Assembly (NCBI RefSeq): GCF_900114315.1
Contig: NZ_FOSQ01000014.1
Location: forward strand, 1 to 64,000
DNA from: Falsiroseomonas stagni DSM 19981
GTDB lineage: Bacteria; Pseudomonadota; Alphaproteobacteria; Acetobacterales; Acetobacteraceae
Direction of reading: 5' to 3'
DNA: 64,000 nt
The position numbers and the translations under genes were made by a program. Each line of letters starts with the position of its first letter. The first letter of the stretch is position 1. Shown piece after piece: positions 7,644 to 63,080 of this stretch. The notes below the pieces were generated by a model that had not been told where the DNA came from, did not search any database, and worked only from the letters and a program-made list of their open reading frames with translations.

Positions 7644-7730
7644 ACCTTCCGCACCCCGTGACCCCTAAGGCCTCTCGGCCCCTGGCTCCCCAGCCACACC
7701 ACGCAAGACCCCCGATCCACCGCGCGGCCA

Positions 7731-7749
7731 TCGAAGCGTGACGCTTTGA
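7731..7749. promoter_or_regulatory. inverted repeat in the DUF1285 / MoxR divergent promoter region
   Basis: A perfect 13-bp palindrome AAGCGTGACGCTT (7734-7746) extends to 19 bp with one mismatch. It lies between two divergent genes, 88 bp from the DUF1285 start and 84 bp from the MoxR start. It could be an operator for either. No regulator is encoded next to it. Confidence 0.3.
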
Positions 7750-7832
7750 TGCACTGCGATGTGGCGCCGGGGATGGGCGAGGTGGATACTCGCCCCATAT
7801 CGAACTGACCGCATATAGGGAGCCTGACCCGC

Positions 7833-8829
<997 letters not shown>

Positions 8830-34304: not shown

Positions 34305-35214
34305 TCAATGCCGCTGGAATTCGGCGTCGAGGCTGTCGCCACCCGCCATGTTGAGGGCGAAGCCGTTGCCGTTCAGCTTGCCATGCGGCTTGGCGGGCCG
34401 GACCTTGGCGGGCTGGTCGCGGCGGATCGCCGGCTTGGCCTGCGGACGGGCGAAGGACACCGCCCGCGTCTCCGCCACCGGCGCTGCGGGCGGCGCCTCC
34501 GCATCGCCGAGGCGGAAATAGGCGATGGTGGATTGCAGCACCTCCGCCTGCGTCGACAGCTCCTCCGACGTCGCGGAGACCTCCTCCGACGCGCTGGCAT
34601 TCTGCTGCGTCACCTTGTCCAGCTGCTGGATCGCCTGGTTGATCTGCCCGGCGCCGAGGTCCTGTTCCCGGCACGCCGCGCTGATCTCCTCCACCAGCTC
34701 CGCCGTGCGCTTGATGTCCGGCACCAGGCGCTGGAGCATCGCCCCCGCTTCCTGCGCCGTCTTCACCGTGTTCGACGACAGCGTGCTGATCTCCGCCGCC
34801 GCCGCCTGGCTGCGTTCCGCCAGCTTGCGCACCTCGCTCGCCACCACCGCGAAGCCCTTGCCGTGCTCGCCCGCCCGCGCCGCTTCCACCGCCGCGTTCA
34901 GCGCCAGCAGGTCGGTCTGCCGCGCGATCTCCTGCACGATGTTGATCTTCTCCGCGATGCTCTGCATCGCGACCACCGCCTCGCTCACCGCCGCGCCGCT
35001 GCGCTGCGCATCCTCGGCCGACTGGCGGGCGATCTTCTCCGTCTGGCTGGCGTTCTCCGCGCTCTGCTTGATGTTCGCCGCCATCTCCTCCATCGACGCC
35101 GAGGCTTCCTCCGCCGACGACGCCTGCTCCGTCGCGCCCTGCGCCAGCTGCTCGGAGGAAGACGCCAGTTCCTGGCTGCCGGACGCCACGTTCTGCGCCG
35201 CCACCGAAGCCTCG
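34305..35214 (-). repeat. 910-bp direct repeat, receptor signalling half (copy 1)
   Basis: It aligns base for base without gaps to 36153-37062, with only scattered substitutions. It covers the signalling hairpin and C-terminal tail of the receptor gene at 34305. Identity stops abruptly upstream, where GTGACG versus CTGACC differ and the proteins diverge. Confidence 0.85.
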
Positions 35215-36110
35215 CTGACCACGGCGCGCAGCTTCGCCAGCATCCGCTCCAGCGCCAGGCCCATCACGTCCTTGTCGGACAGCGGCTTCGCCTCGATGGC
35301 CAGGTTGCCCTTCGCGATCTCCTCCGCCACCGTCGCCGTCCCGCGCAGCCCCACCGTCATGCGGCCCATCGCGTCGATCAGGTCCTTGATCTCGTCATTG
35401 GTCGTGACGCGGGCCGTCTGGCTGAGATCGCCGATCGCGACCGAACTCACGACATGCAGGGCCTGGCCCAGGCCACGGCTGATCGACAGCGCCATCCAGA
35501 CCGCCGCACCGCAGGCAATGACGAAGGCGATGCCGGCAAGGGCGAGCAGCAGACGGCTCGCATGCACCGCCTCGTCCGACGCATTGTCCCGCGCTTCCTC
35601 CATCAGCCCCTGGTTGATGCGGATCACGTCGTTGAGGCGATCCATCGACTCGGTCACGGACTGGAGCGCGACCGTGGTGGACATTGCAATCGCCTGCGCC
35701 TGGTCACCCGCACGCACCAGTTCGCGCATGCGGTCCTGGACCTGGATGTACTGCTGCAACGCATCCCGCGCCGCCACCCAGCGCGGCCGCCCCTGCTCCG
35801 AAGCCCGCTGGATTCCCTGCTCCAACGCCTGCACCAGCGCCTGCCGGCGCTGCTCCATCTCCGCGCCGAAGCGATCGACCGCCGCGCGATCGGTGGACAT
35901 CACCATGTTCTTCTCGGCGCGGACAAGCAGCGCCATGTCGGTCTGCGCCGTCTGCGCCCGCTGGACGCGGCTCACCGCGCCATTCAGCACGTCTTCGTAA
36001 CTGGTCGTCGTCGCGTTCAGGCTGCTGTAGCCGAGGCCCGCCATCCCGGCCAGCAGCAGGAGGATGAACCCGAAGGTTGCGAAAAGCTTCGCCTTGACGG
36101 TGATCCGCAT
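34305..36110 (-). CDS. methyl-accepting chemotaxis receptor, 4-helix-bundle sensor
   Basis: A 601-residue receptor. It has one N-terminal membrane helix (about 10-28), a periplasmic four-helix-bundle sensor (about 30-185), a second helix (about 188-208), HAMP, and a long cytoplasmic signalling hairpin. The hairpin tip is [20 protein letters not shown] followed by [17 protein letters not shown]. The C-terminus ends LDAEFQRH, a possible adaptor tail. The last 303 codons are nearly identical at DNA level to those of the neighbouring receptor, while the sensor domains differ. The ligand is unknown. Confidence 0.9.
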
Positions 36111-36152
36111 AGCGATCGATTCCCTGGGAATTGTCGTTGATCGGGAGGCGGC

Positions 36153-37062
36153 TCAGTGCCGCTGGAATTCGGCGTCGAGGCTGTCGCCACCGGCCATGTT
36201 GAGGGCGAAGCCGTTGCCGTTCAGCCCGCCATGCGCCTTGGCCGGCCGGGCCTTGGCGGGCTGGTCGCGGCGGATCGCCGGCTTGGCCTGCGGACGGGCG
36301 AAGGACACCGCCCGCGTCTCCGCCACCGGCGCCGCGGGCGGCGCCTCCGCATCGCCGAGGCGGAAATAGGCGATGGTGGATTGCAGCACCTCCGCCTGCG
36401 TCGACAGCTCCTCCGACGTCGCGGAGACCTCCTCCGACGCGCTGGCGTTCTGCTGCGTCACCTTGTCCAGCTGCTGGATCGCCTGGTTGATCTGCCCGGC
36501 GCCGAGGTCCTGCTCCCGGCACGCCGCGCTGATCTCCTCCACCAGCTCCGCCGTGCGCTTGATGTCCGGCACCAGGCGCTGGAGCATCGCCCCCGCTTCC
36601 TGCGCCGTCTTCACCGTGTTCGACGACAGCGTGCTGATCTCCGCCGCCGCCGCCTGGCTGCGTTCCGCCAGCTTGCGCACCTCGCTCGCCACCACCGCGA
36701 AGCCCTTGCCGTGCTCGCCCGCCCGCGCCGCTTCCACCGCCGCGTTCAGCGCCAGCAGGTCGGTCTGCCGCGCGATCTCCTGCACGATGTTGATCTTCTC
36801 CGCGATGCTCTGCATCGCGACCACCGCCTCGCTCACCGCCACACCGCTGCGCTGCGCATCCTCGGCCGACTGGCGGGCGATCTTCTCCGTCTGGCTGGCA
36901 TTCTCGGCGCTCTGCTTGATGTTCGCCGCCATCTGCTCCATCGAGGCCGAGGCTTCCTCCGCCGACGAAGCCTGCTCCGTCGCGCCCTGCGCCAGCTGCT
37001 CGGAGGAAGACGCAAGCTCCTGGCTGCCGGACGCCACGTTCTGCGCCGCCACCGAAGCCTCG
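36153..37062 (-). repeat. 910-bp direct repeat, receptor signalling half (copy 2)
   Basis: Partner of the repeat at 34305-35214, in the same orientation and offset by 1,848 bp. It covers the signalling hairpin and tail. Recombination between the copies would delete one sensor and fuse the rest into a working receptor. Confidence 0.85.
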
Positions 37063-37841
37063 GTGACGATCCTGCGGAGCGCCGTGTTCATCCGCTCCAT
37101 CGCGTTGATGAGGTCCTTGATCTCATCATTGCCGCGCTGGTCCACCTTCTGGGAGAGGTCGCCCGTGGCGATGGCATCGGCCAGCGTCACCGCCTTGCGC
37201 AAGCCGGCGCCAATGGACAGCGCGATCCACACGGCGGCGCCGATCGCAACCAGCAGGGCCGCGCCCGCCGCCAGCAACAGCACGAGCCGCATGTCATCCT
37301 TCGTCTCCTGCGCCTCCGCGCGCTCCGTCCGCAGCAGTTCAGCACTGATGCCGATGACCTGCTGCAGGCGATCCATCGTCTCGGCGACATGGCGACGCGC
37401 GGTGCCGGTCGACAGTGTCGCCGCCTGTGCCGAATCCCCGGCCCGGACCAAGTCCCGGATCTGGTCCTGCGCCTGGATGTACTGCTGCAGCGAAGACCGT
37501 GCGTCCACCCAGCGTGGGCGATCAGCCTCCATGGCGCCGGCGATGGCATTCTCGATGGAACCGAGAAGCGCCTGCCGGCGCTGCTCCATCTCCACCACGA
37601 ACTGATCGGATTGCGCGCGGGTCGGCGCGACGATCACGTTCTTCTCCGCGCGAACCAGCAGGACCAGGTCCGATTGCGCGGTCTGCGCCCGCTGGATGCG
37701 CGGCACCGCGTCATCGAGCACGCCTGTATAGGTATCCCCAACGGAAGCGAGGCCGTTCAGCCCGAACCCCACCATGCCGACCATCAGCATGATGACGCAT
37801 CCGAAGGATGCGAAGAGCTTGGTCTTCACGGTGATGCGCAT
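36153..37841 (-). CDS. methyl-accepting chemotaxis receptor, 4-helix-bundle sensor
   Basis: A 562-residue receptor with the same plan as its neighbour: [20 protein letters not shown] helix, four-helix-bundle sensor, second helix near 190-210, HAMP, signalling hairpin and the same LDAEFQRH ending. It is 39 residues shorter, because the region between HAMP and the hairpin lacks the second linker present in the other receptor (around [16 protein letters not shown]). Its sensor domain is related to but distinct from the neighbour's, so the two probably sense different signals through a shared output. Confidence 0.9.
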
Positions 37842-37873
37842 GGTGCCTGCGTCCTGTCGGGTTACGGGGAGGA

Positions 37874-38326
37874 TCAGTGGAGGATCTGGCTGAGATTCGG
37901 CAGGATCAGCAGGTCATCGCCGCGCATGCCGATGCCGCGGATGAATTCCGGCCGCCATCGGATGCCGATCCGCGGCGCCGCTTCCAGCGACGCCGGGACG
38001 ATCTGCGTCACCTCGAAGACCCTGTCGGCCAGGATGCCGACGGGCGTCGGTTCTCCCTCCAGGTCGAGTTCAAGGACGATGATCCGCGTATCCGGCGTCG
38101 GCGCCGTCACCGCCATGCCGAACTGCACGCGCAGATCGGCCAGCGGCACGATGCGACCGCGGACATTGACAACCCCGCCGACGAAGGATCGCGCGCCGGG
38201 CACGGCCGTGATCGGCACCAGGTCCAGAATTTCCCGCACATCGGCAGCCTCAATCGCGAAGATCTCGCCGCCGATGCCGAGGGTCAGCACGTCGATCGCG
38301 CTGTCGGAAAGGATGTCGCGCGTCAT
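37874..38326 (-). CDS. cheW: CheW-type coupling protein (operon copy 1)
   Basis: A 150-residue CheW domain ([54 protein letters not shown]). The start overlaps the cheA stop by four bases. It is placed between cheA and the receptors, while the other CheW lies after them. The two share the EILDL, VRGR and RVFEVT motifs but differ elsewhere. Confidence 0.9.
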
Positions 38327-40299
38327 GCCGCCTGCCTCATCCGTGTCCGGCGTCCCTCTTCCTCCCCGATCTCCAGCAGATGGGCGACATCGAGGATGAG
38401 CGCCACGCTGCCGTCGCCGAGGATGGTCGCGCCGGAGAAGGTCTTTACATCCGCATGCAGCCGCGACAGCGACTTGATCACGGTCTGGTGGCTGCCGAGG
38501 ATCTGGTCGACCACCAGCCCGAGACGCTGGTCGCCCGCGGCGATGATGACCACCTTCTGATGCGGATCGGGCGGCGTCGTGCAGCGCATCAATTCGCGCA
38601 GCCGGAGGAAGGGCACCAGCGCGCCGCGGATCTGCAGCAGGCTGTAGCCCGCCGACCGTCCATCCTCCTGCGGCGGCAGTTCGACGCATTCCTCGACCGC
38701 CGAAAGCGGGATCGCGTAGCAGCCATCGCCGACACGCACGAGGAGGCCTTCGATGATCGCGAGCGTCAACGGCAGGCGAAGCGTCACATCGGTGCCGCGG
38801 CCGGGCCGCGTCGCGATCTCGATCGAGCCGCGCAGCTGCTCCACCGTCCGCTTCACCACATCCATGCCGACGCCGCGGCCGGAGATCGCGGAGATCTCCT
38901 TCGCCGTGGAGAAACCCGGCTGGAACAGCAGCTGGTGGATCTCATGATCCGCCAGCCGGGCATCGGCGGCAATCAGGCCCTTCTCGATCGCGCTCGCGCG
39001 GATGCGTTCCGCGTCCAGGCCTCGGCCATCGTCGCTGACGGTGACGAGCACTTCCGCCCCCGCATGCCGCGCCGAAAGCCGGATGCTGCCACCTTCCGGC
39101 TTGCCGGCGGCCAGGCGAACCGCCGGCGCTTCCAGGCCATGGTCCACGGCATTGCGGATCAGATGCACCAGCGGATCGGCCAGCCGCTCGATCATCGTCT
39201 TGTCGAGCTCGGTCTCCTCGCCGCTCGTCACCAGCTCGACCGGCTTGCCGAGGTCGCGCGACAGGTCGTGCAGCAGGCGCCGGAAGCGGCTGAACAGCGA
39301 CCCGATCGGCAGCATGCGGATGCTCATCGTCGTGTCGCGCAGTTCCGCGACCAGCCGGCCGATCTCCTCCGCCACCGCGGTCAATCCGGCCTCCCCGCCG
39401 GTGGCGAGCTGGCTGAGCCGCGCATGCGCGATCACCAATTCGCCGACGCGATCCATCAGCGCATCGAGACGCTCTGCCTGGACACGCAGGCTGCCACCGA
39501 CGCGGGCAATGTCGCCCTCGCCCCGTGCACGCTCCGCCACAGGCTGGACGGGTGCCGCTGCGACCGGCACGGCAGCGGATGGGGCCGGGGCGGGCGGGGC
39601 TGCCGGCTCCGGCGCGTCCCCGACCAGGCTGATGTCGATCTTCGCGTCGTCGCTGACGAAGATGAAGACTTCCTCGATGGCCGCGCGGGAACAGGAACTG
39701 CGCAGCCTGACCTGCCAGCCGAGGTGGCAGGTCTCGGGATCCATATCATCGAGCGTCGGCACCGCATCGACGAGGGCCGCGACCGTGACCGGCCCCAGGG
39801 CCCGCAATTCATCCAGCATCAACAGCGGGTTCGTGCCGTTGACCAGCGCCTCCGGCCCCAGATGGAAGCGGATCTGCCATTCCATCGCCGCGGCCGGCTG
39901 GGGGCTGCTTGCCGCCGCATCCGCCCCATCCACGGCCAGGCGCAAGGCCGCCAGCAATTCGGTGCCGCGCGCGGGCAGCGCCTGCTCCGGCGCCTCGATC
40001 AGGGCGCGGATGTGGTCGCGCGCCTGCAACGCCGCCGTCACCAGCGCGGGCGTGCAGGGTGCAAGGCCGCCACGCACGCGGTCGAAGGCGGTCTCGAAAT
40101 CATGGACGAAGGCGGCCACGGCGTCGAAGCCGAACATGGCGCCGGAACCCTTGATGGTATGCAGCGCACGGAAGGCGGTATCGACCAGGCTGCGGTCATC
40201 CGGCCGGCTGCCCAGGTCCAGCAATGCCTGCTCAAGCTGCTCCAGCAACTCAGCCGCTTCCTGGCGGAAGATCTCCGCCGGATCGCCGCCGCCGCTCAT
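38323..40299 (-). CDS. cheA: chemotaxis histidine kinase CheA
   Basis: A 658-residue kinase. The P1 domain carries phospho-His 47 (FRALHTIKGSGAMFGF). A middle domain of the CheA accessory type (MEWQIRFHLGPEAL, CHLGWQVRLRSSCSR) is followed by P3 dimerisation, the P4 ATPase (HLIRNAVDHGLE, VSDDGRGLD, ISGRGVGMDVVKRTVEQLRG) and the P5 CheW-like domain. It phosphorylates CheY and CheB in response to receptors. The ATG at 40299 overlaps the cheY stop (ATGA), and the cheW start overlaps its own stop, so the whole set is coupled. Confidence 0.94.
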   Translation of the reverse strand: MSGGGDPAEIFRQEAAELLEQLEQALLDLGSRPDDRSLVDTAFRALHTIKGSGAMFGFDAVAAFVHDFETAFDRVRGGLAPCTPALVTAALQARDHIRALIEAPEQALPARGTELLAALRLAVDGADAAASSPQPAAAMEWQIRFHLGPEALVNGTNPLLMLDELRALGPVTVAALVDAVPTLDDMDPETCHLGWQVRLRSSCSRAAIEEVFIFVSDDAKIDISLVGDAPEPAAPPAPAPSAAVPVAAAPVQPVAERARGEGDIARVGGSLRVQAERLDALMDRVGELVIAHARLSQLATGGEAGLTAVAEEIGRLVAELRDTTMSIRMLPIGSLFSRFRRLLHDLSRDLGKPVELVTSGEETELDKTMIERLADPLVHLIRNAVDHGLEAPAVRLAAGKPEGGSIRLSARHAGAEVLVTVSDDGRGLDAERIRASAIEKGLIAADARLADHEIHQLLFQPGFSTAKEISAISGRGVGMDVVKRTVEQLRGSIEIATRPGRGTDVTLRLPLTLAIIEGLLVRVGDGCYAIPLSAVEECVELPPQEDGRSAGYSLLQIRGALVPFLRLRELMRCTTPPDPHQKVVIIAAGDQRLGLVVDQILGSHQTVIKSLSRLHADVKTFSGATILGDGSVALILDVAHLLEIGEEEGRRTRMRQAA

Positions 40300-40658
40300 C
40301 CGAGCACCTTCTTGACGATGGCCAGAAGCTGGGCCTGTTCGAAGGGCTTCGTGATCCACCCCGTCGCGCCGGCCTGCTTCGCTTCCATCTTGCGGGCGGC
40401 ATCGGATTCGGTGGTCAGGAAGATGATCGGCACGCCCTTGTAGGCAGGCAGCTTCCGCAATTCGCGGATGAAGGTCATGCCGTCCATGACGGGCATGTTG
40501 AGGTCGGTGACCACCATGCTCATCGGCGTCGCCTGGGCCTGCCGCAGCCCCTCCGCCCCGTCGCCCGCTTCCTTCACCTGGTAGCCCGCGCCGGAGAGGG
40601 TGAGGCGCACCATCTGCCGGACGCTGGCCGAGTCATCGACGGTCAGCACGGTCTTCAT
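40296..40658 (-). CDS. cheY: CheY-type response regulator
   Basis: A 120-residue stand-alone receiver. It has the acidic pocket in TVDDSASV, the phospho-Asp in MVVTDLNMPVMDG, Thr in IFLTTE and Lys in ITKPFEQAQL. It is the output regulator expected for CheA. No flagellar or pilus genes are in the window, so the process controlled (swimming, twitching or another) cannot be told. Start and stop overlap both neighbours by four bases. Confidence 0.92.
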   Translation of the reverse strand: MKTVLTVDDSASVRQMVRLTLSGAGYQVKEAGDGAEGLRQAQATPMSMVVTDLNMPVMDGMTFIRELRKLPAYKGVPIIFLTTESDAARKMEAKQAGATGWITKPFEQAQLLAIVKKVLG

Positions 40659-41313: not shown

Positions 41314-42495
41314 TCAGCCTGGTACGGCAATCTGGTGGCTTAGTGTCACGTCCCGCCCGCTCCGAGCGGATTCCAGCACCGCGAGACAGGCTTCCAGCGT
41401 GGCCATGCCCCAGGCGCCGGAATGCAGCGGCGGGATGCCGTCCAGCACGGCGGCGCAGAACTCGTCCAGCACCTCCCCGCGCGGAACCTCGGGCAGGGGG
41501 GCCGGTTCCAGCCAGCGCCGGTCATCGGTATGGACCATCACCCCCTCCGGCGTCAGGCGCAGGTCGGCGCGCTCGCAACTCGCCAGCAGGAAGCCGAACT
41601 GATTGTGAAAGGCGGGCGCAGCGGGCGGGGCCAGCGGTGGCGTGTCGGGACCATAGGCCCGGCGTGCCTTGGCCGCTTCCTCATCGGTGATGCCGGCCAG
41701 GGCGCGGCGCGCGGTGCCATAGGCGTCGGGGTCGCGCGCCTGGCCGAGTTCGCCCACCCAGCCCATCAATTCGTCGCTGTCATACCGCCCATGGCCGCTA
41801 TAGGTCAGGGTCGCCGTCGCGCCGTCCGCGAATTGCAGGAAGGCCGCATAGGCGCCCTCCGTCGGGCGCCCGGCATCCCAGCCGAAGCACTGGGCGCGGA
41901 TGCTGCGCAGCAGGCCACCGCCCAGCAGGCGCACCACGTCCAGCTGGTGCGCGCCCTGGCTGAACACCACGCCGCCGCCCCGTGCCGTGTCCAGCTCCTC
42001 CGGCCGGCGCGGGCGATAGAGGAAATCCGTGTAGGTCAGCGCCGTGATCAGCCGGACGCGGCCATGCGTGCCGGAGGCGACCAGCCGCCGTGCCGCCAGC
42101 ACCGGCCCGTCCTGGCTGTGGCTGTGGCCGATGACGAGTTGCACCCCGGCGCGGTCCGCGGCCTCGATCATCGCGGCACAGTCGTCCAGCGTGATCGCCA
42201 TGGGCTTTTCCACCAGGCAGTGCTTGCCGGCGGCGCTGGCGGCGATGACGTCGGCAGCGTGGTACTGGTGGGGTGTGGCGACATAGATCGCCTCCACCGC
42301 CCCGTCCCGGCAGAGCGCGGCGATGTCGGCATGGGCGCGGCTGCCGGGGAAATCCCGGGTGAAGCGCGCACGCGCCTCCGGCCGCGGATCGGCGCAGGCC
42401 ACGAGTTCCACCCGCCGGTGGCCGGCGAGGGTCGGCAGCATCAGCGTGAAGGCCCGGCTGAGGCCGACGACGCCAAGCCGCAGCCGCCGCGTCAC
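41314..42495 (-). CDS. Gfo/Idh/MocA oxidoreductase, likely dihydrodiol dehydrogenase of the ring-carboxylate pathway
   Basis: A 393-residue NAD(P)-dependent enzyme. A Rossmann start (RLGVVGLSRAFTLMLPTLAG) is followed by the family motif VEKPMAIT and a C-terminal dimer domain. Pht4, 4,5-dihydro-4,5-dihydroxyphthalate dehydrogenase, belongs to this superfamily. Its neighbours here are relatives of Pht2, Pht3 and Pht5, so the same step (rearomatising a cis-dihydrodiol) is the best inference. The start is GTG at 42495, overlapping the reductase stop (GTGA). A sugar dehydrogenase cannot be ruled out by sequence alone. Confidence 0.8.
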   Translation of the reverse strand: MTRRLRLGVVGLSRAFTLMLPTLAGHRRVELVACADPRPEARARFTRDFPGSRAHADIAALCRDGAVEAIYVATPHQYHAADVIAASAAGKHCLVEKPMAITLDDCAAMIEAADRAGVQLVIGHSHSQDGPVLAARRLVASGTHGRVRLITALTYTDFLYRPRRPEELDTARGGGVVFSQGAHQLDVVRLLGGGLLRSIRAQCFGWDAGRPTEGAYAAFLQFADGATATLTYSGHGRYDSDELMGWVGELGQARDPDAYGTARRALAGITDEEAAKARRAYGPDTPPLAPPAAPAFHNQFGFLLASCERADLRLTPEGVMVHTDDRRWLEPAPLPEVPRGEVLDEFCAAVLDGIPPLHSGAWGMATLEACLAVLESARSGRDVTLSHQIAVPG

Positions 42496-43460
42496 AGGTC
42501 GATGACCAGTTCTTCCGTGCCCGGCGCGGCGCGGGAGACGCAGACCATCAGCTGCGATGCCTTCTCATGCTCCATGAGCACGAGGTCGCGGTGGTCGACC
42601 GCCCCGCCCAGCAGCCCGGTGCGGCAGGACCCGCAGGTGCCGCTTTCGCAGGAATGGGAGACGGCGATGCCCGCGCCGCGCAGCGCATCCAGGATGGTGG
42701 TGCCGGGCGGCACGTCGATCCGGGCACCGCTGCTGGCCAGGCGCACGGCGAAGGGTGCGTCATCCGCGCGCTTCTGCCCGCCGCCACTGCCAAAATCCTC
42801 GAAATGCACGGCGGAGGCCGGCCAGTGGCCGGTCATGTCCCGCACTGCCTGCATCAGCCCGCGCGGGCCGCAGCAATGGATGTGGCGGCCCTTGGGCTGG
42901 TCGAGCAGCGGCCAGAGGTCGAAGGCGCGGTCGGGGTCGCCGCCATCGTGGTGGATGGTGACCTTGCCCTTCAGATCGGGCGCCGAGAGTTCGTCCCGGA
43001 ACGCGGTCTCGGCCGCGGAGCGCGTGAGGTAGATGAGCTTCCAGGGCGGGCGCCCCTCGGCCTGGAGGTGCCGGATCATGGCCATGATCGGCGTGATGCC
43101 GATGCCCCCCGCGATGAACAGGCGTGAGGCCGGGTTGCCGGCCAGCGGGAAATCGTTGCGCGGCGGGGCGCAGGGCAGCAGGTCCCCGGCCTTCACCTGG
43201 TCGCACAGCAGGACGGACCCGCCCCGCCCGGCGGGATCGCGCTTCACGGCGATGCTGTAGCCGGCCGTCTCGGCGGGATCGCTGCACAGGGAATAGCGGC
43301 GCGTCAGGCCGTTCGGCAGTCGCACGCACAGATGGGCGCCGGCAGTGAATGCAGGCAGGTCGGCACCATCGGGATCGGCCAGGTCGAAGCGGAAGATGCC
43401 CTCGGCGATCGCCTCGGCGGCCAGCACCCGCAAGGGGCGGAACTCCCCATCCTCGTCCAT
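42492..43460 (-). CDS. phthalate-dioxygenase-reductase-type ferredoxin oxidoreductase
   Basis: A 322-residue reductase. The flavin domain has RRYSLCSDP, the NAD domain GGIGITPIMAMIRHL, and the C-terminal plant-type [2Fe-2S] ferredoxin CESGTCGSC with a later Cys (MVCVS). That order is that of the class IA phthalate dioxygenase reductase / VanB family. It supplies electrons from NADH to the Rieske oxygenase encoded divergently. ATG at 43460 has GGAGGG 8 bases upstream and is preferred over GTG at 43466. Operator-like site 1 lies 28 bp upstream of this start. Confidence 0.9.
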   Translation of the reverse strand: MDEDGEFRPLRVLAAEAIAEGIFRFDLADPDGADLPAFTAGAHLCVRLPNGLTRRYSLCSDPAETAGYSIAVKRDPAGRGGSVLLCDQVKAGDLLPCAPPRNDFPLAGNPASRLFIAGGIGITPIMAMIRHLQAEGRPPWKLIYLTRSAAETAFRDELSAPDLKGKVTIHHDGGDPDRAFDLWPLLDQPKGRHIHCCGPRGLMQAVRDMTGHWPASAVHFEDFGSGGGQKRADDAPFAVRLASSGARIDVPPGTTILDALRGAGIAVSHSCESGTCGSCRTGLLGGAVDHRDLVLMEHEKASQLMVCVSRAAPGTEELVIDL

Positions 43461-43487
43461 GCGCACGGCCCTCCCTGCCGGGATTTA

Positions 43488-43501
43488 CTTAGCTATCTAA
43501 G
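43488..43501. promoter_or_regulatory. operator-like inverted repeat, site 1 (CTTAG-CTAT-CTAAG)
   Basis: Perfect 5-bp arms separated by four bases, in the 131-bp divergent region between reductase and oxygenase genes. The same pattern recurs at 43545 and 47164. It is probably recognised by a dimeric regulator (MarR or similar) not encoded nearby. Confidence 0.55.
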
Positions 43502-43544
43502 AATTTTGGTCAAGCCCCGGCCGCCCTGCCTTGCAGGCCCGGCA

Positions 43545-43558
43545 CTTAGAACGCTAAG
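43545..43558. promoter_or_regulatory. operator-like inverted repeat, site 2 (CTTAG-AACG-CTAAG)
   Basis: Second perfect copy of the repeat, 57 bp (centre to centre) from site 1 and 34 bp upstream of the oxygenase ATG. Both sites are preceded by A. Arm sequence and spacing are identical to site 1; only the central four bases differ. Confidence 0.55.
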
Positions 43559-43591
43559 TATTGGCCAGCCTTGCAGTGTGGAGGAAGCGGC

Positions 43592-44911
43592 ATGCTGACC
43601 CATGAGGAAAACCAGCTTCTGGCCCGCGTCGAGGGCGATGCCCCCATGGGCCGCCTGATGCGCCAGCATTGGCTGCCCGTCTGCCTGTCGGAGGAGGTGG
43701 AGGAGCCCGAGGGCAAGCCCATCCGCGTCCGCATCCTGGGCGAGAACCTGGTCGCCTACCGCGATGCCGAGGGCCGGGTCGGCCTGGTCGGCGAATTCTG
43801 CCCGCATCGCAAGGCGTCGCTCGTCTATGGCCGGAACGAGGAAGGCGGGTTGCGCTGCCTCTATCACGGCTGGAAGGTCGATGCCGACGGCAATGTCGTC
43901 GAGATGCCGTCGGAGCCGCCGGAGGCCTGCGCCGCCGCGAAGTTCAAGCACCCCGCCTATCCGACCGAGGAAGCCGGCGGTTTCGTCTGGGCCTATATGG
44001 GCGACCGCGCGACGATGCCGGCCTTCGAGCCCCCGCCCTTCGCGCCGACGCCGGAGACGCGCGTTTCCATCGGCACCGCGCGCGTGGACTGCAACTGGGC
44101 GCAAGTAGTGGAAGGGCAGATCGACAGCGCCCATTCATCGTCGCTGCATTCGTCGGACATGGTCCCCGCCCGCGTCGGCCGCGCCAGCGCCAGTGCGAAG
44201 GGGTGGACCCGGCCTTCGACGGACAAGGCGCCGCGGCTGCAGGTGCAGCTCACCTCCTACGGCTTCCGCTACGCCGCCATCCGCCGGCCGATCCAGAACG
44301 CGTCGGTGAACGACTACATCCGCATCACCACCTTCGTCGCGCCGCTGATCTGCCTGATCCCGCCGAACGCCAGCTACAACGTGGCGCAGGTGACGATCCC
44401 GATCGACGACCACAGCTGCATGTTCCACTTCATCGCCTGGGGGGATGGGCCGGACGTGCCCTCCATGGCCGAATGGCGGAAGTTCCTGGCGCTGACGCCG
44501 GGTGTCGATGTCGATCCCGCCAAGGGCTGGGCCAGGCTGCGGGTGCGGGACAACGACTATTTGCAGGACCGCAACCTGATGAAGCTCGGCAATTTCACGG
44601 GCATCAAGGGCATCCCCGCGCAGGACATGGCGATGTGGGAAGGCATGGGGCTGATCGCGGACCGCACCTCCGAACGGCTGGGCGCCAGCGACGTTGCCAT
44701 CGTGCAGTGGCGCCGCCTGATGATCGAGGCCGCGAAAGCCTTCGCGGAAGGCGCGCCCGCACTCGGCCGGACGGCGCCGATGGTGCCGAAGAAGGACATT
44801 GCGAGCTTCGAGGGCGTGGTGCCGAAGACCACGGATTGGCGCACCCTCGGCACCACCGAACTGGAGCGCAGCCTCTTCCCGGGCGCCGCACCGGCCCAGG
44901 CTGCCGAGTAG
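43592..44911 (+). CDS. Rieske aromatic ring-hydroxylating oxygenase, phthalate 4,5-dioxygenase-like
   Basis: A 439-residue oxygenase alpha subunit. The Rieske cluster ligands are Cys70, His72, Cys89 and His92 (FCPHRKAS, CLYHGW). The mononuclear iron ligands fit D178-x2-H181-x4-H186 (QIDSAHSSSLHS). No beta subunit gene follows, as expected for the homo-oligomeric phthalate dioxygenase class. It would add O2 to an aromatic or heteroaromatic carboxylate. ATG at 43592 has GGAGGA ideally placed. It is divergent from its reductase and followed after five bases by the decarboxylase. Confidence 0.88.
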   Translation: MLTHEENQLLARVEGDAPMGRLMRQHWLPVCLSEEVEEPEGKPIRVRILGENLVAYRDAEGRVGLVGEFCPHRKASLVYGRNEEGGLRCLYHGWKVDADGNVVEMPSEPPEACAAAKFKHPAYPTEEAGGFVWAYMGDRATMPAFEPPPFAPTPETRVSIGTARVDCNWAQVVEGQIDSAHSSSLHSSDMVPARVGRASASAKGWTRPSTDKAPRLQVQLTSYGFRYAAIRRPIQNASVNDYIRITTFVAPLICLIPPNASYNVAQVTIPIDDHSCMFHFIAWGDGPDVPSMAEWRKFLALTPGVDVDPAKGWARLRVRDNDYLQDRNLMKLGNFTGIKGIPAQDMAMWEGMGLIADRTSERLGASDVAIVQWRRLMIEAAKAFAEGAPALGRTAPMVPKKDIASFEGVVPKTTDWRTLGTTELERSLFPGAAPAQAAE

Positions 44912-44916
44912 GATCG

Positions 44917-45909
44917 ATGAGCAACCTTTCCCTCTCCGTCGCCATCGGCCCCTATGACCGCATGATGCCGCTGGTACGCGGCGAGGCGCGGATCGACGCG
45001 GTCGATCCGCAATTCATGCTGCTGGAACCGGAGGAGATCTTCTTCCGGGCCATGCGGCATGAGGCCTTCGACATCTGCGAACTCTCGCTCTCCTCCTACA
45101 GCCTGCGCGTCGCGCGGGGCGACAGCCCCTATGTCGCGATCCCCGTCTTTCCCTCCCGCGCCTTCCGCCACACCTGCATCGTCGTGCGCAACGACCGTGG
45201 CATCCGCACGCCCGCCGACCTTCGCGGCAAGCGCATCGGCATGCCGGAATACCAGCTGACCGCGAATGTCTGGGCGCGCGCGATCCTGGAGGAGGAATAC
45301 GGCGTCAACCAGCGCGACATCACCTGGGTGCGCGGCGGCTATGAAAGCCCCGGGCGGATCGAGAAGCTGAGCGTGACGCTGCCCGATGGCGTGGTGGTGG
45401 AGAATGCGCCGGAAGGGAAGACCATCTCCGGCATGCTCGCCGCCGGCGAACTCGACGGCGTGATGGGCCCGCGTGCGCCATCCTGCTTCGAACGCGGTGA
45501 TCCCGCCATCCGCTGGCTGTTCGATGACCCGACGGCCGAGGCGACCGCCTGGTTCCGGAAGACGCGCATCTTCCCGGTGATGCATGTGCTCGGCATCCGC
45601 AGGACGCTGGTGGACAAGCATCCCTGGCTGCCGACGGCGGTGATGAAGGGCTTCCAGAAGTCGAAGGACATCGCGCTGGAACGGCTGACCGACACCTCCG
45701 CCACCAAGGTCACGCTGCCCTTCGTGGAGGAGAATTTGCGTCGCGCACGGCAGCTGATGGGCGAGGATTTCTTCAGCTACGGCCTGGCGCCCAACCGCCA
45801 CGTCTTCGACTACTTCCTGCGCCACCACCATGCGCAGGGCCTGTCGAACCGCGTGCTGGCGGCGGAGGAACTCTTCCACCCGAGCACGCTGGAAGCGCAC
45901 AAGGTGTGA
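44917..45909 (+). CDS. 4,5-dihydroxyphthalate decarboxylase-like protein
   Basis: A 330-residue protein of the periplasmic-binding-protein-like fold (SLSVAIGPYDRMMPLVRGEA, FRHTCIVVRNDRGIRTPADL, GKRIGMPEYQLTANVWARAI, WVRGGYESPGR). It lacks a signal peptide, which separates it from transport binding proteins. The length and motifs match Pht5, which removes one carboxylate from 4,5-dihydroxyphthalate. It directly follows the Rieske oxygenase. With the reductase and dehydrogenase the set would turn phthalate or a look-alike into a dihydroxy monocarboxylate such as protocatechuate. Confidence 0.85.
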   Translation: MSNLSLSVAIGPYDRMMPLVRGEARIDAVDPQFMLLEPEEIFFRAMRHEAFDICELSLSSYSLRVARGDSPYVAIPVFPSRAFRHTCIVVRNDRGIRTPADLRGKRIGMPEYQLTANVWARAILEEEYGVNQRDITWVRGGYESPGRIEKLSVTLPDGVVVENAPEGKTISGMLAAGELDGVMGPRAPSCFERGDPAIRWLFDDPTAEATAWFRKTRIFPVMHVLGIRRTLVDKHPWLPTAVMKGFQKSKDIALERLTDTSATKVTLPFVEENLRRARQLMGEDFFSYGLAPNRHVFDYFLRHHHAQGLSNRVLAAEELFHPSTLEAHKV

Positions 45910-45921
45910 GGGGTTTCCCCC

Positions 45922-47109
45922 TCAGACCGGAAAGCCCTCCAGCAGTTCCAGCGGATCGCCGTAGCGCTCGGCCAGCGCGACCACCTTCGGGTCGCGCAGG
46001 GACAGCAGGTAGCCATCCTCGATCATCGGGCTGTTGCCCGCGGTGACCGTGCTGTCATAGGTCACCAGATCCATGTGGATGTGCGGCTCCTCCCAGTTCG
46101 GCATCACGCGGCGCAGATATTCGGAAGGCTTCAGCGCGTTGATGCCGAAATGCAGGGCGCCGGGGGAATTGGGACCGGCGGGGTAGATGTCGAAGCGCGG
46201 CGCCTTCGGGTTGTGGCCGCAGCCCACTTCCTCGAGTGTCCCGCCAATGAGGTAGTCGCGCAGCACCTCGGCCTCGAAACCCTCGCCATGCACGGCATGC
46301 ACCACGTCGTCCTGGAACTCCACGCCGACGGGTGTCGCGAAGGGGTGGTCGAAGCCGACGGCCCATTGCGCCCAGATGGTGCCTGATATGCCGACCTTGT
46401 CCTCCGGCTTCAGCCCCACCATGCCGGGCTCGAACAGGTTCGGGCCATGCGTCGGCAAATAGTGGACGTAGCAGCCATCCTCATCCGCCACATTGTGCCC
46501 ACGCCAGCGATTGTGGCGCTTCAGCTTCTGCAGCATCGCATCGGTGTAGGGGATGCGGAAATCCGTGCCGCGCGGATCGGTGAAGCGCAGCGTGAAATCG
46601 CCCTGCTCGGGGAACAGGCGCGAGGTCGCGCGGATGATCTCGCCGAGCAGGTCGATCGGGAACTGCGCCTGCGGCGTGTTCAGCAGGTCCAGGTCGCGGA
46701 AGAAGGTGATCTTGACCCAGCGCTGGCCCTTGTTCTTCCGCAGCGCCATGCAGAAGGGATCGATCACGCTGGCGAACCAGGTGGAGACGACGAAGGTCGC
46801 GCGTTCCAGCAGCGCCTTCGCCTCATCCGGGATGGTCACGTAGCGCGTGCTGTCGCCCATATAGGCGATGAAGGTGGCGCCACGCCCCCGCGCCAGGCCC
46901 TGCACCGCCTGCACCACGCGCGGGTCCAGCAGCGGGTCGATCAGCATCACCACATGGTCGCCGGGCCGGATCGCCATGACGCGGCAGAAATTGTCCATGC
47001 CCTTGATGGAGGCGGCGATGTCCGCCGGCGGATGCGTCACCTTGCGCGGCAGGCCGCGGCGCGTGGGGGCGGCGATGATGTCCTCGACGCGATTGGCCAG
47101 GCGGGGCAT
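45922..47109 (-). CDS. NicX-like (2,5-dihydroxypyridine 5,6-dioxygenase / M29-fold) enzyme
   Basis: A 395-residue protein. The stretch HGEGFEAEVLRDYL (about 274-287) closely resembles NicX (HGGFEAEYLRDYM as recalled), and HMD (345-347) fits the NicX HxD iron ligands; His299 is a further candidate. NicX opens 2,5-dihydroxypyridine and shares the fold of M29 aminopeptidases. It converges on the decarboxylase gene with a 12-bp gap, and its promoter carries the third copy of the cluster's operator-like repeat. Ring cleavage is therefore a reasonable inference, although an M29-like peptidase is possible. ATG at 47109 has GGAGGA upstream; the frame extends to 47160. Confidence 0.65.
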   Translation of the reverse strand: MPRLANRVEDIIAAPTRRGLPRKVTHPPADIAASIKGMDNFCRVMAIRPGDHVVMLIDPLLDPRVVQAVQGLARGRGATFIAYMGDSTRYVTIPDEAKALLERATFVVSTWFASVIDPFCMALRKNKGQRWVKITFFRDLDLLNTPQAQFPIDLLGEIIRATSRLFPEQGDFTLRFTDPRGTDFRIPYTDAMLQKLKRHNRWRGHNVADEDGCYVHYLPTHGPNLFEPGMVGLKPEDKVGISGTIWAQWAVGFDHPFATPVGVEFQDDVVHAVHGEGFEAEVLRDYLIGGTLEEVGCGHNPKAPRFDIYPAGPNSPGALHFGINALKPSEYLRRVMPNWEEPHIHMDLVTYDSTVTAGNSPMIEDGYLLSLRDPKVVALAERYGDPLELLEGFPV

Positions 47110-47163
47110 GGCGGCTTCCTCCTCCACCGGCCACGCCTTGCGAGGAGCGGGGCCGGGCATAAA

Positions 47164-54918: not shown

Positions 54919-55521
54919 ATGACCAGCATCACCGCCGACATCCTGCCGACCAGCGCCCCGCCCCGCCACGGCGCCACCACCATCGCGCTGCACTGGGGCG
55001 CCGCCCTCGTGCTGGTCGCGGCCTTCGGCCTCGGCCTGCTGATGGAGGAATGGCCGCGCGGCCCGCAGCGCGACATGGCGATGATGATCCACTACAGCCT
55101 CGGCACGCTGGTGCTGGCGACGGTCATGCTGCGGCTGCTGCGGCGCCTGCTGCTGCCCGGCCCGGTGAAGCCCGATGCGGGGCTGGCCGGGAAGGCCGCG
55201 CTGGCCGTGCACGGGATGCTCTACGCCCTGATGGTCGCCATGCCCGTGACCGGCGCCATGGACCGCTGGGCGCGCGGCCGCCCGCTGCGGCTGTTCGGCG
55301 ACAACCTGATCCCCGCCCCCTTCCCGATCGGCGGCGGCAAGCTGTGGATCGAGGCGCATGAACTGATGGCATGGGCGCTGGTCGCCCTCGTCGCCGCCCA
55401 TGCCGGTGCCGCGCTGTGGCACCACTTCATCCAGCGCGACGATGTGCTGCGCCGGATGCTGCCCGGTCGCCCCGGCGTCGCCGCCGGGTCGATGGGTCAG
55501 CCCGGCATCACCGCCGGATAG
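54919..55521 (+). CDS. cytochrome b561-type membrane protein
   Basis: A 200-residue protein with four predicted helices. The His residues expected to hold b-type haem are in IALHWGAALV, MMIHYSLG, AVHGMLYALM and VAAHAGAALWHHF. Such proteins transfer electrons across the inner membrane, for example from quinol. Its last 25 bases overlap the convergent racemase-fold gene, whose stop is at 55497. Confidence 0.85.
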   Translation: MTSITADILPTSAPPRHGATTIALHWGAALVLVAAFGLGLLMEEWPRGPQRDMAMMIHYSLGTLVLATVMLRLLRRLLLPGPVKPDAGLAGKAALAVHGMLYALMVAMPVTGAMDRWARGRPLRLFGDNLIPAPFPIGGGKLWIEAHELMAWALVALVAAHAGAALWHHFIQRDDVLRRMLPGRPGVAAGSMGQPGITAG

Positions 55522-56306
55522 ACCGGGCCGTAATAGCGGCGGAGCTCCTCGATCTGGCCCGGCGGTGGCTGCCCATAGGCGCCCCGCCGGCTGGCATAGC
55601 GCCCGCCCATGGCGCGGGAGAGGCGCACCGCCGCCTGCCCCGCCTGCACAAGCGCCATGGGGCCGCACAGCACCGGCGTGTCCTTCACCGTCTCATGCAC
55701 CCCGGCCTCCGCCAGCAGCACCATGGCCACGCCGACGGCGGGGATCACCACCTCCGCCCCCTTCGCCACGCAGGCCTCCGCCGCCGCATGGAACTGGCCA
55801 AGAATGCGCTCCCGCTGCTCACCGGGGCTGAAGGCAGCATCGAGGTCCACGAGGCGATCGACCGCCATCCGCTCCACCGCCACGACGCGCGTGTTCAGGC
55901 CATAGACGGAAACATTCTCCAGGATGCGGGAGTAGTGCTTGTCGTTGGACACGACGAGGCCAACCGTCACGCCCATCTGGCAGGCCGTGAACAGCGAGGA
56001 TTCGCACAGCCCCAGCACCGGGATCCGCGCCATCTCCCGCGCCGTGCGCAACCCCGGATCGGCGATGTTGCCGAGCAGCACGGCGTCGAAGCCCTCGGCC
56101 TCCGCGCGCTCCACATTCTCCAGCACCTCGATCGTCTCGATGAATTCGAGGCGCCGGTACTGGTCACCGACGCCGCCGCGCTTCTCGATCCCATGCACCT
56201 CGATCACCGTGCCGGGATCGGTCGCCTGCGCCAGCACACGGCGCAGCGCGGCCTGGTAGGCGGGCCAGGCATCGGGACGGGTGAGCGACTGGTACCAGAG
56301 TTTCAT
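55497..56306 (-). CDS. Asp/Glu-racemase-fold protein lacking both catalytic cysteines (copy 1)
   Basis: A 269-residue protein of the aspartate/glutamate/hydantoin racemase superfamily (GFDAVLLGNIADPGLRTARE, IPVLGLCESSLFTACQMG). Active members use two Cys, one at the end of the strand before the GDPG-like loop and one in a GCAG-like motif. Here these positions are Asn80 and Val191. It probably does not do classical two-base racemisation and may bind or isomerise another acid. It is the last gene of the eight-gene operon, five bases after a Bug gene. It is a paralogue of 59939-60748. Confidence 0.8.
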   Translation of the reverse strand: MKLWYQSLTRPDAWPAYQAALRRVLAQATDPGTVIEVHGIEKRGGVGDQYRRLEFIETIEVLENVERAEAEGFDAVLLGNIADPGLRTAREMARIPVLGLCESSLFTACQMGVTVGLVVSNDKHYSRILENVSVYGLNTRVVAVERMAVDRLVDLDAAFSPGEQRERILGQFHAAAEACVAKGAEVVIPAVGVAMVLLAEAGVHETVKDTPVLCGPMALVQAGQAAVRLSRAMGGRYASRRGAYGQPPPGQIEELRRYYGPVYPAVMPG

Positions 56307-56310
56307 GCGT

Positions 56311-57285
56311 TCACTCCGCCCGGATATTGGCGCCGCGGATCACCTCGCCCCAGGACCGGCCCTCGCTGGACAGGCGCTGCGCGAAGCTCTCGATGCTGCC
56401 GCCCAGCGGCTTCGCGCTGAGGCGTTCCAGCGCGGCGGTCATGGTGGGGGAGGCGATGCTCTCGGCCAGCACGGCATGCAGGCGCTGCGTCGTCTCCGCC
56501 GGCAGGCCGGCGGGCGCCATGATGCCCCACCAGACCGTGACGTTGATGCCCTCGATCCCCTGTTCGGCGAAGGTCGGCGAGTCCGGCAGCGCGGGGTGGC
56601 GCTGGCGGTCGGCGACGCCAAGCACCTTGAACTGCCCGCCGCGGATCAGCGGCAGCGCCTGCGCCAGGTTGGTGAACATCATGGAAAGCCGCCCGGCCTG
56701 AAGATCCGTCATCGCCGGCGCGCCACCGCGATAGGGGACATGCACGATGTCGATCCCCGCGCGCAGCTTCAGCAATTCGCTGGCCAGGTGCTCCGTGGTG
56801 CCGGAACCGCCGGAGCCGAAGGTGTAGAAGCCGGGCCGCGCACGCGCCATGGCGATGAAGGCGCGCGCGTCATTCGCCTCGAACCCCGGCGGCGCGATCA
56901 TGACGGAGGGCACCTCCCCCACCAGCATCAGCGGCGCCAGCTGCGTCGCCTGGTCGTAGGTCAGGCTCGGATAGAGATGCGGGTTCACGATGACGGAGGG
57001 AGAGGCCATGAGCAGCGTCGTGCCATCCGGCGCGGATCGCGCGACATGCTCCATGGCGATGTTGCCGCCGCCGCCGGTGCGGTTCTCCACCACCACGGTC
57101 TGGCCGAGCCGCGGTCCGATCTCCTGCGCCACCAGCCGCGCCACGATGTCCACCGCGCCGCCGGCGCCGAAGGGCACGATGATGCGGATGGTGCGGCCGC
57201 CGGCGACCGGCTGCGCGAGGGCGGGCATGGCGAGGGCGGCAGCAGCCGCGCCAAGCACGGCGCGACGAGTGGGATGGGCGCGCAT
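56311..57285 (-). CDS. Bug-family tripartite tricarboxylate transporter binding protein
   Basis: 324 residues. The signal peptide is near ALAQP. Bug signatures are RTIRIIVPFGAGGAVDIVAR, ENRTGGGGNIAMEHVA and VPYRGGAPAMTDLQAGRL. It lies between the isochorismatase-fold and racemase-fold genes, so it probably binds the compound they act on. Upstream are two GGATACA direct repeats (57288-57306), of unknown meaning. Confidence 0.88.
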   Translation of the reverse strand: MRAHPTRRAVLGAAAAALAMPALAQPVAGGRTIRIIVPFGAGGAVDIVARLVAQEIGPRLGQTVVVENRTGGGGNIAMEHVARSAPDGTTLLMASPSVIVNPHLYPSLTYDQATQLAPLMLVGEVPSVMIAPPGFEANDARAFIAMARARPGFYTFGSGGSGTTEHLASELLKLRAGIDIVHVPYRGGAPAMTDLQAGRLSMMFTNLAQALPLIRGGQFKVLGVADRQRHPALPDSPTFAEQGIEGINVTVWWGIMAPAGLPAETTQRLHAVLAESIASPTMTAALERLSAKPLGGSIESFAQRLSSEGRSWGEVIRGANIRAE

Positions 57286-57326
57286 TCTTGTATCCTCCCT
57301 GTATCCTACTCAGTCTGCGCCAGATC

Positions 57327-57349
57327 GGCGGCGCCCTTCAAGCGCCGCC
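57327..57349 (-). terminator. GC hairpin inside the operon
   Basis: GGCGGCGC-CCTTCAA-GCGCCGCC, an 8-bp perfect stem, lies 9 bases after the isochorismatase-fold gene and 42 bases before the next Bug gene. There is no T-run. It could cause partial termination or protect the upstream mRNA, giving unequal expression along the operon. Confidence 0.35.
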
Positions 57350-57357
57350 TTGGGGGC

Positions 57358-57939
57358 TCAGGCCGTGAAGTCGATGGCGTCCGAGGTCGTGAAGGTCGCG
57401 AAGCGCTGCAGAGCGCGGATCGCGGCGTCCTGGTCCTCCTGCGTCGCGCAGGCGCAGCAATCCTCCAGCACCGTCATGACGTAGTCCCGGTCATGCCCGT
57501 CCCGCACGCAGCCCTGCACCACGGCCACGGTGGAAACGCCGGAGCAGATGATGCGCTGGATGCCATGCGCGCGCAGGATCGCTTCCAGGTTGGTCGCGTA
57601 GAAGGGGCTGACGCGGTGCTTGACGATGTCGAAATCGCCGGGCTGCGGTGCCAGGTCCTTGTGCACCTCCGTGCCCCAGGTCCCGAGCTTGAACAGCCCA
57701 TGCTGCTTCGCGCCGTTGAAGATGACGGAGGTGGACGGAGCCTCCCGGTAGTCGGGGGAGAAGCCGACGCGCACATAGCCGATGGGCACGCCCGCCGCGC
57801 GCGCCTTGGCGATGGCGTTCGCGGTCTTCGGGATGATGCCGCGGCCCTGCACCTGGGCGCCCAGCGGCCCCTTGCCGTTCGGCCCATCGGCCGAGACGAG
57901 ATCGTTTTCCATGTCGAGGACGAGGTAGATCGACTTCAT
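57358..57939 (-). CDS. isochorismatase-fold protein lacking the catalytic cysteine
   Basis: 193 residues. The Asp (YLVLDMENDLV, Asp9) and Lys (FDIVKHRVSPFY, Lys107) of the cysteine-hydrolase triad are present. The segment that normally reads G-V-x-T-N-x-C-V is GVSTVAVV here, so the nucleophilic Cys is Val140; a Cys four residues later (144) is not in the same place. Loss of Cys also occurs in PhzD, which hydrolyses a vinyl ether without a covalent intermediate. It is likely to act on a substrate taken up by the neighbouring Bug proteins. ATG at 57939 begins the first strand; upstream codons belong to the spacer. Confidence 0.82.
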   Translation of the reverse strand: MKSIYLVLDMENDLVSADGPNGKGPLGAQVQGRGIIPKTANAIAKARAAGVPIGYVRVGFSPDYREAPSTSVIFNGAKQHGLFKLGTWGTEVHKDLAPQPGDFDIVKHRVSPFYATNLEAILRAHGIQRIICSGVSTVAVVQGCVRDGHDRDYVMTVLEDCCACATQEDQDAAIRALQRFATFTTSDAIDFTA

Positions 57940-57955
57940 CGTATGTATTCCCGTT

Positions 57956-58930
57956 TCAATCGTCGAGCTTGATGCCAAGGCGTTCCACCCGCGCCCGCCA
58001 CACCGCGTCATCTTCCGCGAGGTAGCTGATGAAGCGCGCGCGATCCTGCGTATCCGCGAGCAACCCATTGGGCGTGAGGAATTCCAGCGCCGCCGGCGTC
58101 CGCACGAAAGCCTGGGTTTCCTGCGCGATGCGCTCCGCGATGGCGGCGGGCGTACCGGGCGGCGCGAGGATGGCGAGCCAGAGATCGCCCGCCAGGTTGA
58201 TACCCTGTTCCGTCAGCGTCGGCACCTGCGGGATGGCGGAGAAGCGCTGCGCCGTCGCGACGCCAAGGATGGGCAGGCGCCCCTGCTGGCCGATGGCCAC
58301 CGCGACCGGCAGCATCATCGCATCGACCTGGTCACCCAGCAGCGCCTGCACGGCGGGGGCGGCGCCCTGGAAGGGGATGTGCTGCATCTCCGTCCGCGTC
58401 TCGAACTTCATCGTCTCCATCATCACCTGCGACGTGCTGGCAATACCCCAGGAGGCGAAGGTCAGCGGGTTGCTGGCGCGCGAGCGTGCCAGCGCCACGA
58501 ATTCCTGCGCCGTCTTCGGCCCGAGTCCCGGCCGCGTGACAAGCGAGAAGACAAGCCGCGCCACGGCGGAAACCGGCACGAAGCTCTGCGGCTGGTAGGG
58601 CAGACGGCGATAGACCACGGGGTTCACGGAATGCGTATCCGCCGTGGTGAAGATCAGCGTGTGCCCGTCCGGCGCCGCCTGCTGCACCGCCTGGCTGCCG
58701 AGGATGCCGTTGGCACCCGGCCGGTTCTCCACCACCGCCGGCTGGCCGAGCCGCGTGGTGAGTTCCCGCGCCACCCAGCGCGCGACGAGGTCCGTCGCGC
58801 CCCCCGGCGGATAGGCGACGACGAGGCGCACGGGACGCGTCGGGGCCCAGGCCTGGGCGCGCGCCGCGCCGGGAAGCATGGCGATGGCAGGCGCCGCGAG
58901 CATGAGCCCGCGGCGAGAGGGCATGGTCAT
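57956..58930 (-). CDS. Bug-family tripartite tricarboxylate transporter binding protein
   Basis: 324 residues. The signal peptide is near ARAQA. Bug motifs are RPVRLVVAYPPGGATDLVAR and ENRPGANGILGSQAVQQA. AAGGGG lies close to the ATG at 58930, a better start than that at 58945, which overlaps the upstream stop. It is third of the Bug genes when the operon is counted from its distal end. It has the same general fold as its neighbours but different residues in the pocket loops. Confidence 0.88.
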   Translation of the reverse strand: MTMPSRRGLMLAAPAIAMLPGAARAQAWAPTRPVRLVVAYPPGGATDLVARWVARELTTRLGQPAVVENRPGANGILGSQAVQQAAPDGHTLIFTTADTHSVNPVVYRRLPYQPQSFVPVSAVARLVFSLVTRPGLGPKTAQEFVALARSRASNPLTFASWGIASTSQVMMETMKFETRTEMQHIPFQGAAPAVQALLGDQVDAMMLPVAVAIGQQGRLPILGVATAQRFSAIPQVPTLTEQGINLAGDLWLAILAPPGTPAAIAERIAQETQAFVRTPAALEFLTPNGLLADTQDRARFISYLAEDDAVWRARVERLGIKLDD

Positions 58931-58941
58931 GGCGTTCCCCT

Positions 58942-59913: not shown

Positions 59914-59938
59914 CGTTGTTTCCTCCCGATTGTTGCGC

Positions 59939-60748: not shown

Positions 60749-60749
60749 G

Positions 60750-62947: not shown

Positions 62948-63045
62948 GTGACCGGCGCCGCTCCCCTTTGCTTGGACGGGCGCAGGGTTCACCCGTGGCG
63001 GCCGGAGGGCAACGGCCGAGTACCGGGGAGACGCCGAATACAGTC

Positions 63046-63060
63046 TTCGACTTTCCCGAA
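63046..63060. promoter_or_regulatory. candidate LysR-binding box
   Basis: TTCG-N7-CGAA contains the LysR pattern T-N11-A (63047-63059). It lies 99 bp upstream of the flavoprotein ATG and 21 bp upstream of the LysR ATG, where control of both genes is expected. Confidence 0.5.
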
Positions 63061-63080
63061 TGATGGGATAGGCTGCGCGC

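Follow-up and report, generated by a model that had tools for sequence, protein, structure and literature searches.

We analysed a 64,000-nucleotide stretch of the Falsiroseomonas stagni DSM 19981 genome (contig NZ_FOSQ01000014.1, positions 1 to 64,000; hereafter, the window), in which five genes at 41314-47160 unite a set of predicted phthalate-degrading enzymes with a protein of the NicX fold, for which NICX is used here as shorthand. The genome holding the window measures 6.38 Mb and its closest named relatives at this locus are Roseomonas and Falsiroseomonas. The features are as follows:

41314..42495, minus strand: predicted cis-4,5-dihydrodiol phthalate dehydrogenase (Gfo/Idh/MocA family; Pht4-type); PF01408, E 3.3e-21; 7wzd matched at residues 4-385, E 6.1e-122
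42492..43466, minus strand: predicted phthalate dioxygenase reductase (FAD/NAD binding and 2Fe-2S); PF00970, PF00175, PF00111; near the oxygenase in many relatives
43467..43591, no strand: presumed divergent promoter region, reductase/dehydrogenase versus oxygenase/decarboxylase, judged from the gene layout
43592..44911 (open frame from 43571), plus strand: predicted phthalate 4,5-dioxygenase, Rieske oxygenase component; PF00355, PF19301; 7fjl, E 2e-182
44917..45909, plus strand: predicted 4,5-dihydroxyphthalate decarboxylase (solute-binding-protein-like family); 9jp7, E 4.2e-129; PF12974, PF09084
45922..47109 (open frame to 47160), minus strand: NICX, uncharacterised NicX-fold protein, probable metalloenzyme

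The dehydrogenase gene shares 4 bases with the reductase gene on the minus strand (an alternative ATG for the latter is possible at 43460); on the plus strand the oxygenase and decarboxylase genes follow in tandem with 5 bases between them, and the NICX gene is convergent with that of the decarboxylase.

An earlier note on this DNA had recognised relatives of all four enzymes leading from phthalate to protocatechuate, and Pfam together with solved relatives confirms them. The oxygenase combines a Rieske domain (PF00355, E 2.7e-19) with a LigXa_C-type catalytic domain (PF19301, E 1.8e-139) and is 63% identical to the sequence of 7fjl, which we take to be the phthalate dioxygenase of Comamonas testosteroni KF1 (PDO-KF1); 7v25, 7v28, 7wzd and 9jp7 presumably have the same origin. 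Phthalate-pathway enzymes are the best solved relatives of three of the five proteins, since the dehydrogenase is closest to 7wzd, titled '4,5-dihydroxyphthalate dehydrogenase', and the decarboxylase to 9jp7, '4,5-dihydroxyphthalate decarboxylase', over residues 1-329; the corresponding activity is predicted from this full-length homology to a solved enzyme. PMC12445078 names S182, R207, R244 and I256 as residues of PDO-KF1 and gives isophthalate dioxygenase V for S182 and L for R207. All four agree with the 7fjl sequence in letter and number, and all four are kept in the window oxygenase as S189, R214, R251 and I263 (numbering of the frame from 43571). An isophthalate-type oxygenase is rejected on the retained R207 and S182 equivalents, and the four kept residues and the overall identity make phthalate the expected substrate, with cis-4,5-dihydroxylation predicted. 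Ortho-dicarboxylated pyridines (quinolinate, cinchomeronate) share the ortho-dicarboxylate geometry and would also fit the pocket. The locus thus resembles the C. testosteroni KF1 phthalate 4,5-dioxygenase pathway in its oxygenase and in having near full-length relatives of the dehydrogenase and decarboxylase, but differs in its extra NicX-fold gene and in having no protocatechuate dioxygenase among its five genes.

Judged by this homology, the oxygenase and reductase would hydroxylate phthalate, giving a cis-4,5-dihydrodiol that the dehydrogenase would convert to 4,5-dihydroxyphthalate; the decarboxylase would then yield protocatechuate, whose cleavage we expect from a 3,4-dioxygenase with its genes in another part of the genome. 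The earlier note had set the NicX-like enzyme in place of protocatechuate dioxygenase; it is true that the five genes include none, but cleavage is provided for elsewhere, as the host has three PF00775 gene pairs outside the cluster, two of them with a beta subunit above the curated PcaH cut-off, and hence no ring-cleaving enzyme is missing. Candidates for protocatechuate cleavage are present in all 23 NICX-carrier handles (22 distinct genomes, as G001 and G266 have identical places): the PcaH cut-off is exceeded in 13 (12 of the 22), and each of the other 10 has a LigB match with E below 1e-77, which is a match at family level and does not prove protocatechuate 4,5-dioxygenase.

What sets NICX apart is the company it keeps. 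Among 38 fetched loci with NICX, a full-length oxygenase is found in 18 and all four phthalate genes in 15, so that the comparison among relatives which the earlier note had proposed shows the five-gene combination to recur. Genomes were surveyed in the host's family and in that of a Paracidovorax-labelled assembly (L039, whose protein was the NICX query there), with E limits of 1e-20 for NICX and of 1e-110 and 1e-130 for the oxygenase. The host's family (249 genomes) has NICX in 7, the oxygenase in 12 and both in 6; the other (299 genomes) has NICX in 9, the oxygenase in 24 and both in 9. The hypergeometric probabilities of such co-occurrence, 2e-8 and 2.8e-11 respectively, are too small because kinship and shared ancestry are ignored. 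Together, 15 of 16 carriers of NICX possess phthalate dioxygenase, whereas 6/12 and 15/24 oxygenase genomes have no NICX; NICX is tied to phthalate dioxygenase and the converse is not so. Every one of the 23 carrier handles tested (from 22 of the 38 loci, plus the host) has an oxygenase that is at least 57% identical, including cases where the two genes are not adjacent. In G378 they stand at 993,616 and 4,357,036 of one 4.5-Mb contig, a gap of 3.4 Mb, or about 1.1 Mb if the contig is circular, and in four more genomes (G001, G007, G361, G464) they lie on separate contigs. In the oxygenase tree, linked NICX is scattered, with at least 6 changes forced for the linked group by well-supported branches, and 111 of 500 shuffles were as low as the observed value. 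Seven loci (L017, L019 and L021-L025) have a NICX 80-83% identical to that of the window but an oxygenase just 61-62% identical. The two genes do not seem to have been inherited together as a single block. A search of plasmids for the NICX protein gave zero matches.

The earlier note called NICX an enzyme related to 2,5-dihydroxypyridine dioxygenase, which holds in so far as it is a distant relative of NicX (2,5-dihydroxypyridine 5,6-dioxygenase; PDB 7cn3, 7cnt, 7cup), sharing its fold and an H-x-D pair, but several other NicX residues are not kept. Its fold match is nearer to NicX than to the M29 aminopeptidases (AmpT, PepS, AmpS) and places it within the NicX fold, although its similarity to NicX lies below detection in PDB sequence searches; no Pfam family is matched at E 0.001, and hence neither is PF02073 (M29). 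The iron ligands of NicX, as given in PMC7910607, are His265, Ser302, His318 and Asp320. The last two correspond to H362 and D364 of NICX, which are invariant in alignment A1 and retained in 45 of the 46 distinct NICX rows (51 tblastn rows after removal of duplicates), the remaining row stopping short of them; one locus with a stop in frame (L027) was left out of A1, but its piece is counted among the 46 and in the tree. The His265 column is H in 10/10 NicX-type rows of the joint alignment, whereas NICX has E (E311) in 15/23 and G in 8/23; read pairwise, the position is E in 29/46 and G in 16/46. E311 is invariant in A1, and the betaproteobacterial rows have a one-residue insertion. For Ser302, MAFFT assigns the column of R351 (R in 19 and K in 4 of 23 rows), inside a predicted helix where the alignment is unreliable, while secondary structure points to the invariant H337 in the matching strand 336-341; either way the residue is not serine. 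The NicX residues His105 and Glu177 are absent too, yet the former is Phe in 6/10 NicX-type rows as well.

The catalytic motif of the M29 family, EEHYHD, which PMC7023490 lists as E250, E316, H345, Y352, H376 and D378 of AmpT, is kept in NICX at H376 and D378 and differs in the other four columns, where the joint NICX/NicX/M29 alignment is unreliable, as it is around all ligands other than HxD. H238 is likewise invariant in A1, and R147, K150, R218, H233, H238 and R301 are invariant or nearly so in the NICX rows, which suggests that the substrate may be anionic. The host separately encodes a nearer homologue of NicX, 36% identical to it (L052, G000:C22:164007-165017), and an M29 aminopeptidase (L067, G000:C43:22126-23340; 521 bits to PF02073); three branches of the fold therefore coexist in one genome. 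We reject NICX as a NicX orthologue, on the lost residues and the undetected similarity, and also as a true M29 aminopeptidase, the possibility that the earlier note had said would overturn its view, on the missing Pfam match and the nearer NicX fold. From its sequence, NICX is probably a metal-dependent enzyme that is neither.

As far as this evidence goes, we see a conventional phthalate module that has an unusual companion. Because NICX nearly always occurs with phthalate dioxygenase among the genomes surveyed, it probably adds one step to phthalate breakdown. The reading that we favour, with somewhat better than even confidence, is a phthalate-to-protocatechuate module with one accessory protein, NICX, acting as a funnelling enzyme: it would depend on the phthalate pathway and turn a carboxylate brought in from outside, for example a phthalate amide or ester or the product of a benzo-fused heterocycle, into phthalate. 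Genes near NICX point the same way. TctC-type uptake genes are present in 28 of the 38 NICX loci, frequently adjoining NICX, and a GntR regulator occurs at 8/18 betaproteobacterial NICX loci versus 0/6 NICX-less oxygenase loci of the same family; this company suggests a distinct uptake step that supplies phthalate. In all, NICX-less oxygenase loci were fetched from 12 of 21 such genomes.

Several observations weigh against a funnelling role, besides the neglected kinship and the family-level LigB matches noted above. The GntR gene is lacking at 10/18 betaproteobacterial NICX loci and from alphaproteobacterial loci whether NICX is present or not, and its control rests on 6 of the 15 NICX-less genomes of the betaproteobacterial family. 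NICX has no transporter gene beside it in the window. One genome of the host's family (G121, 84% complete in 740 contigs) has NICX without a visible oxygenase. At four loci from alphaproteobacterial metagenomes (L030:8954, L031:6566, L032:10640, L041:12627) an M20 amidohydrolase-family gene is adjacent to NICX or one gene off and no phthalate genes are in view, the rest of these genomes not having been searched for the oxygenase. Finally, the idea that NICX is a hydrolase or acts on a heterocycle rests on genome logic. The M20 amidohydrolase was itself considered as a partner of NICX and led nowhere; the copies at L098 and L041 are 33% identical.

A possible but doubtful alternative would make NICX a hydrolase like those of M29, or else have it repair the phthalate pathway by clearing a dead-end or inhibitory side product. 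The invariant H238, E311, H337, H362 and D364 could form a hydrolase-like metal site, and the dependence on the phthalate pathway speaks for this reading; the Pfam and fold results speak against it, as does the M29 motif, which was not recovered in a joint alignment itself unreliable there. It is unlikely, in our view, that NICX is instead a ring-cleaving dioxygenase within the route, with 4,5-dihydroxyphthalate or protocatechuate as its substrate. NicX is its nearest fold, the H-x-D pair is retained, and both the window and L009-L011 have its gene beside the decarboxylase gene; but the iron ligand His265 is not kept, other candidates for protocatechuate cleavage accompany NICX in all carriers tested, and half or more of the oxygenase genomes in each family dispense with it. 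Protocatechuate arises, moreover, from many sources, and its cleaver need not therefore track phthalate dioxygenase as NICX does.

More speculative, and improbable as it stands, is the idea that NICX founds a new family of the NicX/M29 fold that would open a benzo-fused analogue of 2,5-dihydroxypyridine, for instance 4-hydroxy-1-isoquinolone to N-formylphthalamate, so draining isoquinoline-type compounds into the phthalate pathway. If true, this reaction would be the benzo counterpart of that of NicX, and it would account for the ancestry shared with NicX as well as for the tie to phthalate dioxygenase; no linked gene was recognised for the steps before or after NICX. Among the open-licence papers listed on isoquinoline, none evidently dealt with such a route.

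Very unlikely is the pathway that the earlier note had proposed, in which a pyridine dicarboxylate, read here as quinolinate or cinchomeronate, would undergo hydroxylation, rearomatisation and decarboxylation before NICX opens the ring. In its favour, the oxygenase pocket would fit such pyridines, NICX has the NicX fold, and families of the NicF and NicE type (isochorismatase, Asp/Glu racemase) sit at 55-61 kb of the window. Against it, the PDO-KF1 residues are kept, three proteins have phthalate enzymes as closest solved relatives, NICX does not keep H105 and E177, and the NicF/NicE-type genes seldom recur in the loci compared. These genes belong to an operon at 55497-63490 on the minus strand, with two Asp/Glu racemase-family, one isochorismatase-family, three TctC, one SDR and one FAD (tricarballylate dehydrogenase-like) genes, these families being similar to late nicotinate-pathway NicF/NicE. 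Among 68 loci the racemase recurs in L009 and L010 and the isochorismatase in L009 alone, these two loci being near relatives. The operon was rejected as the source of missing NicF/NicE steps on this recurrence of 2/68; the test is weak, since no locus extends beyond about 10 kb from NICX, while the operon itself starts 8 kb away. The earlier note was correct in what it observed, and its interpretation is partly supported, being half right.

The earlier note had known of no described pathway with this combination, and a description of phthalate genes with a NicX-fold companion was likewise not found in the open-licence literature (subscription journals being outside that scope); among the papers listed there, the two that pair phthalate with an aminopeptidase describe Streptomyces genomes. 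Phthalate pollution is widespread and the core route of breakdown is textbook knowledge; a conserved protein found almost only with phthalate dioxygenase in two families suggests that an entry or repair step has been missed. With NICX, the NicX/M29 fold would also gain a third branch whose metal site differs, offering a way to learn how a single fold moves between hydrolysis and oxygen chemistry.

Other genes were seen near these loci. NICX has a LigB-domain extradiol-type dioxygenase gene two or three genes away at L036:2463-3461 and L040:6536-7789. Near the phthalate genes of L113 there is a quinolinate phosphoribosyltransferase-family gene (7583-8464; Pfam on this copy), and L091, L108 and L110 have members of the same protein cluster, making four genomes of the betaproteobacterial family in all. 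Phthalate inhibits quinolinate phosphoribosyltransferase, and the linked gene may therefore be a protective spare copy. In the window, chemotaxis genes adjoin the phthalate cluster (34305-40658, minus strand), encoding CheW, CheA, a CheY-like response regulator and two methyl-accepting chemotaxis proteins whose signalling halves are almost identical.

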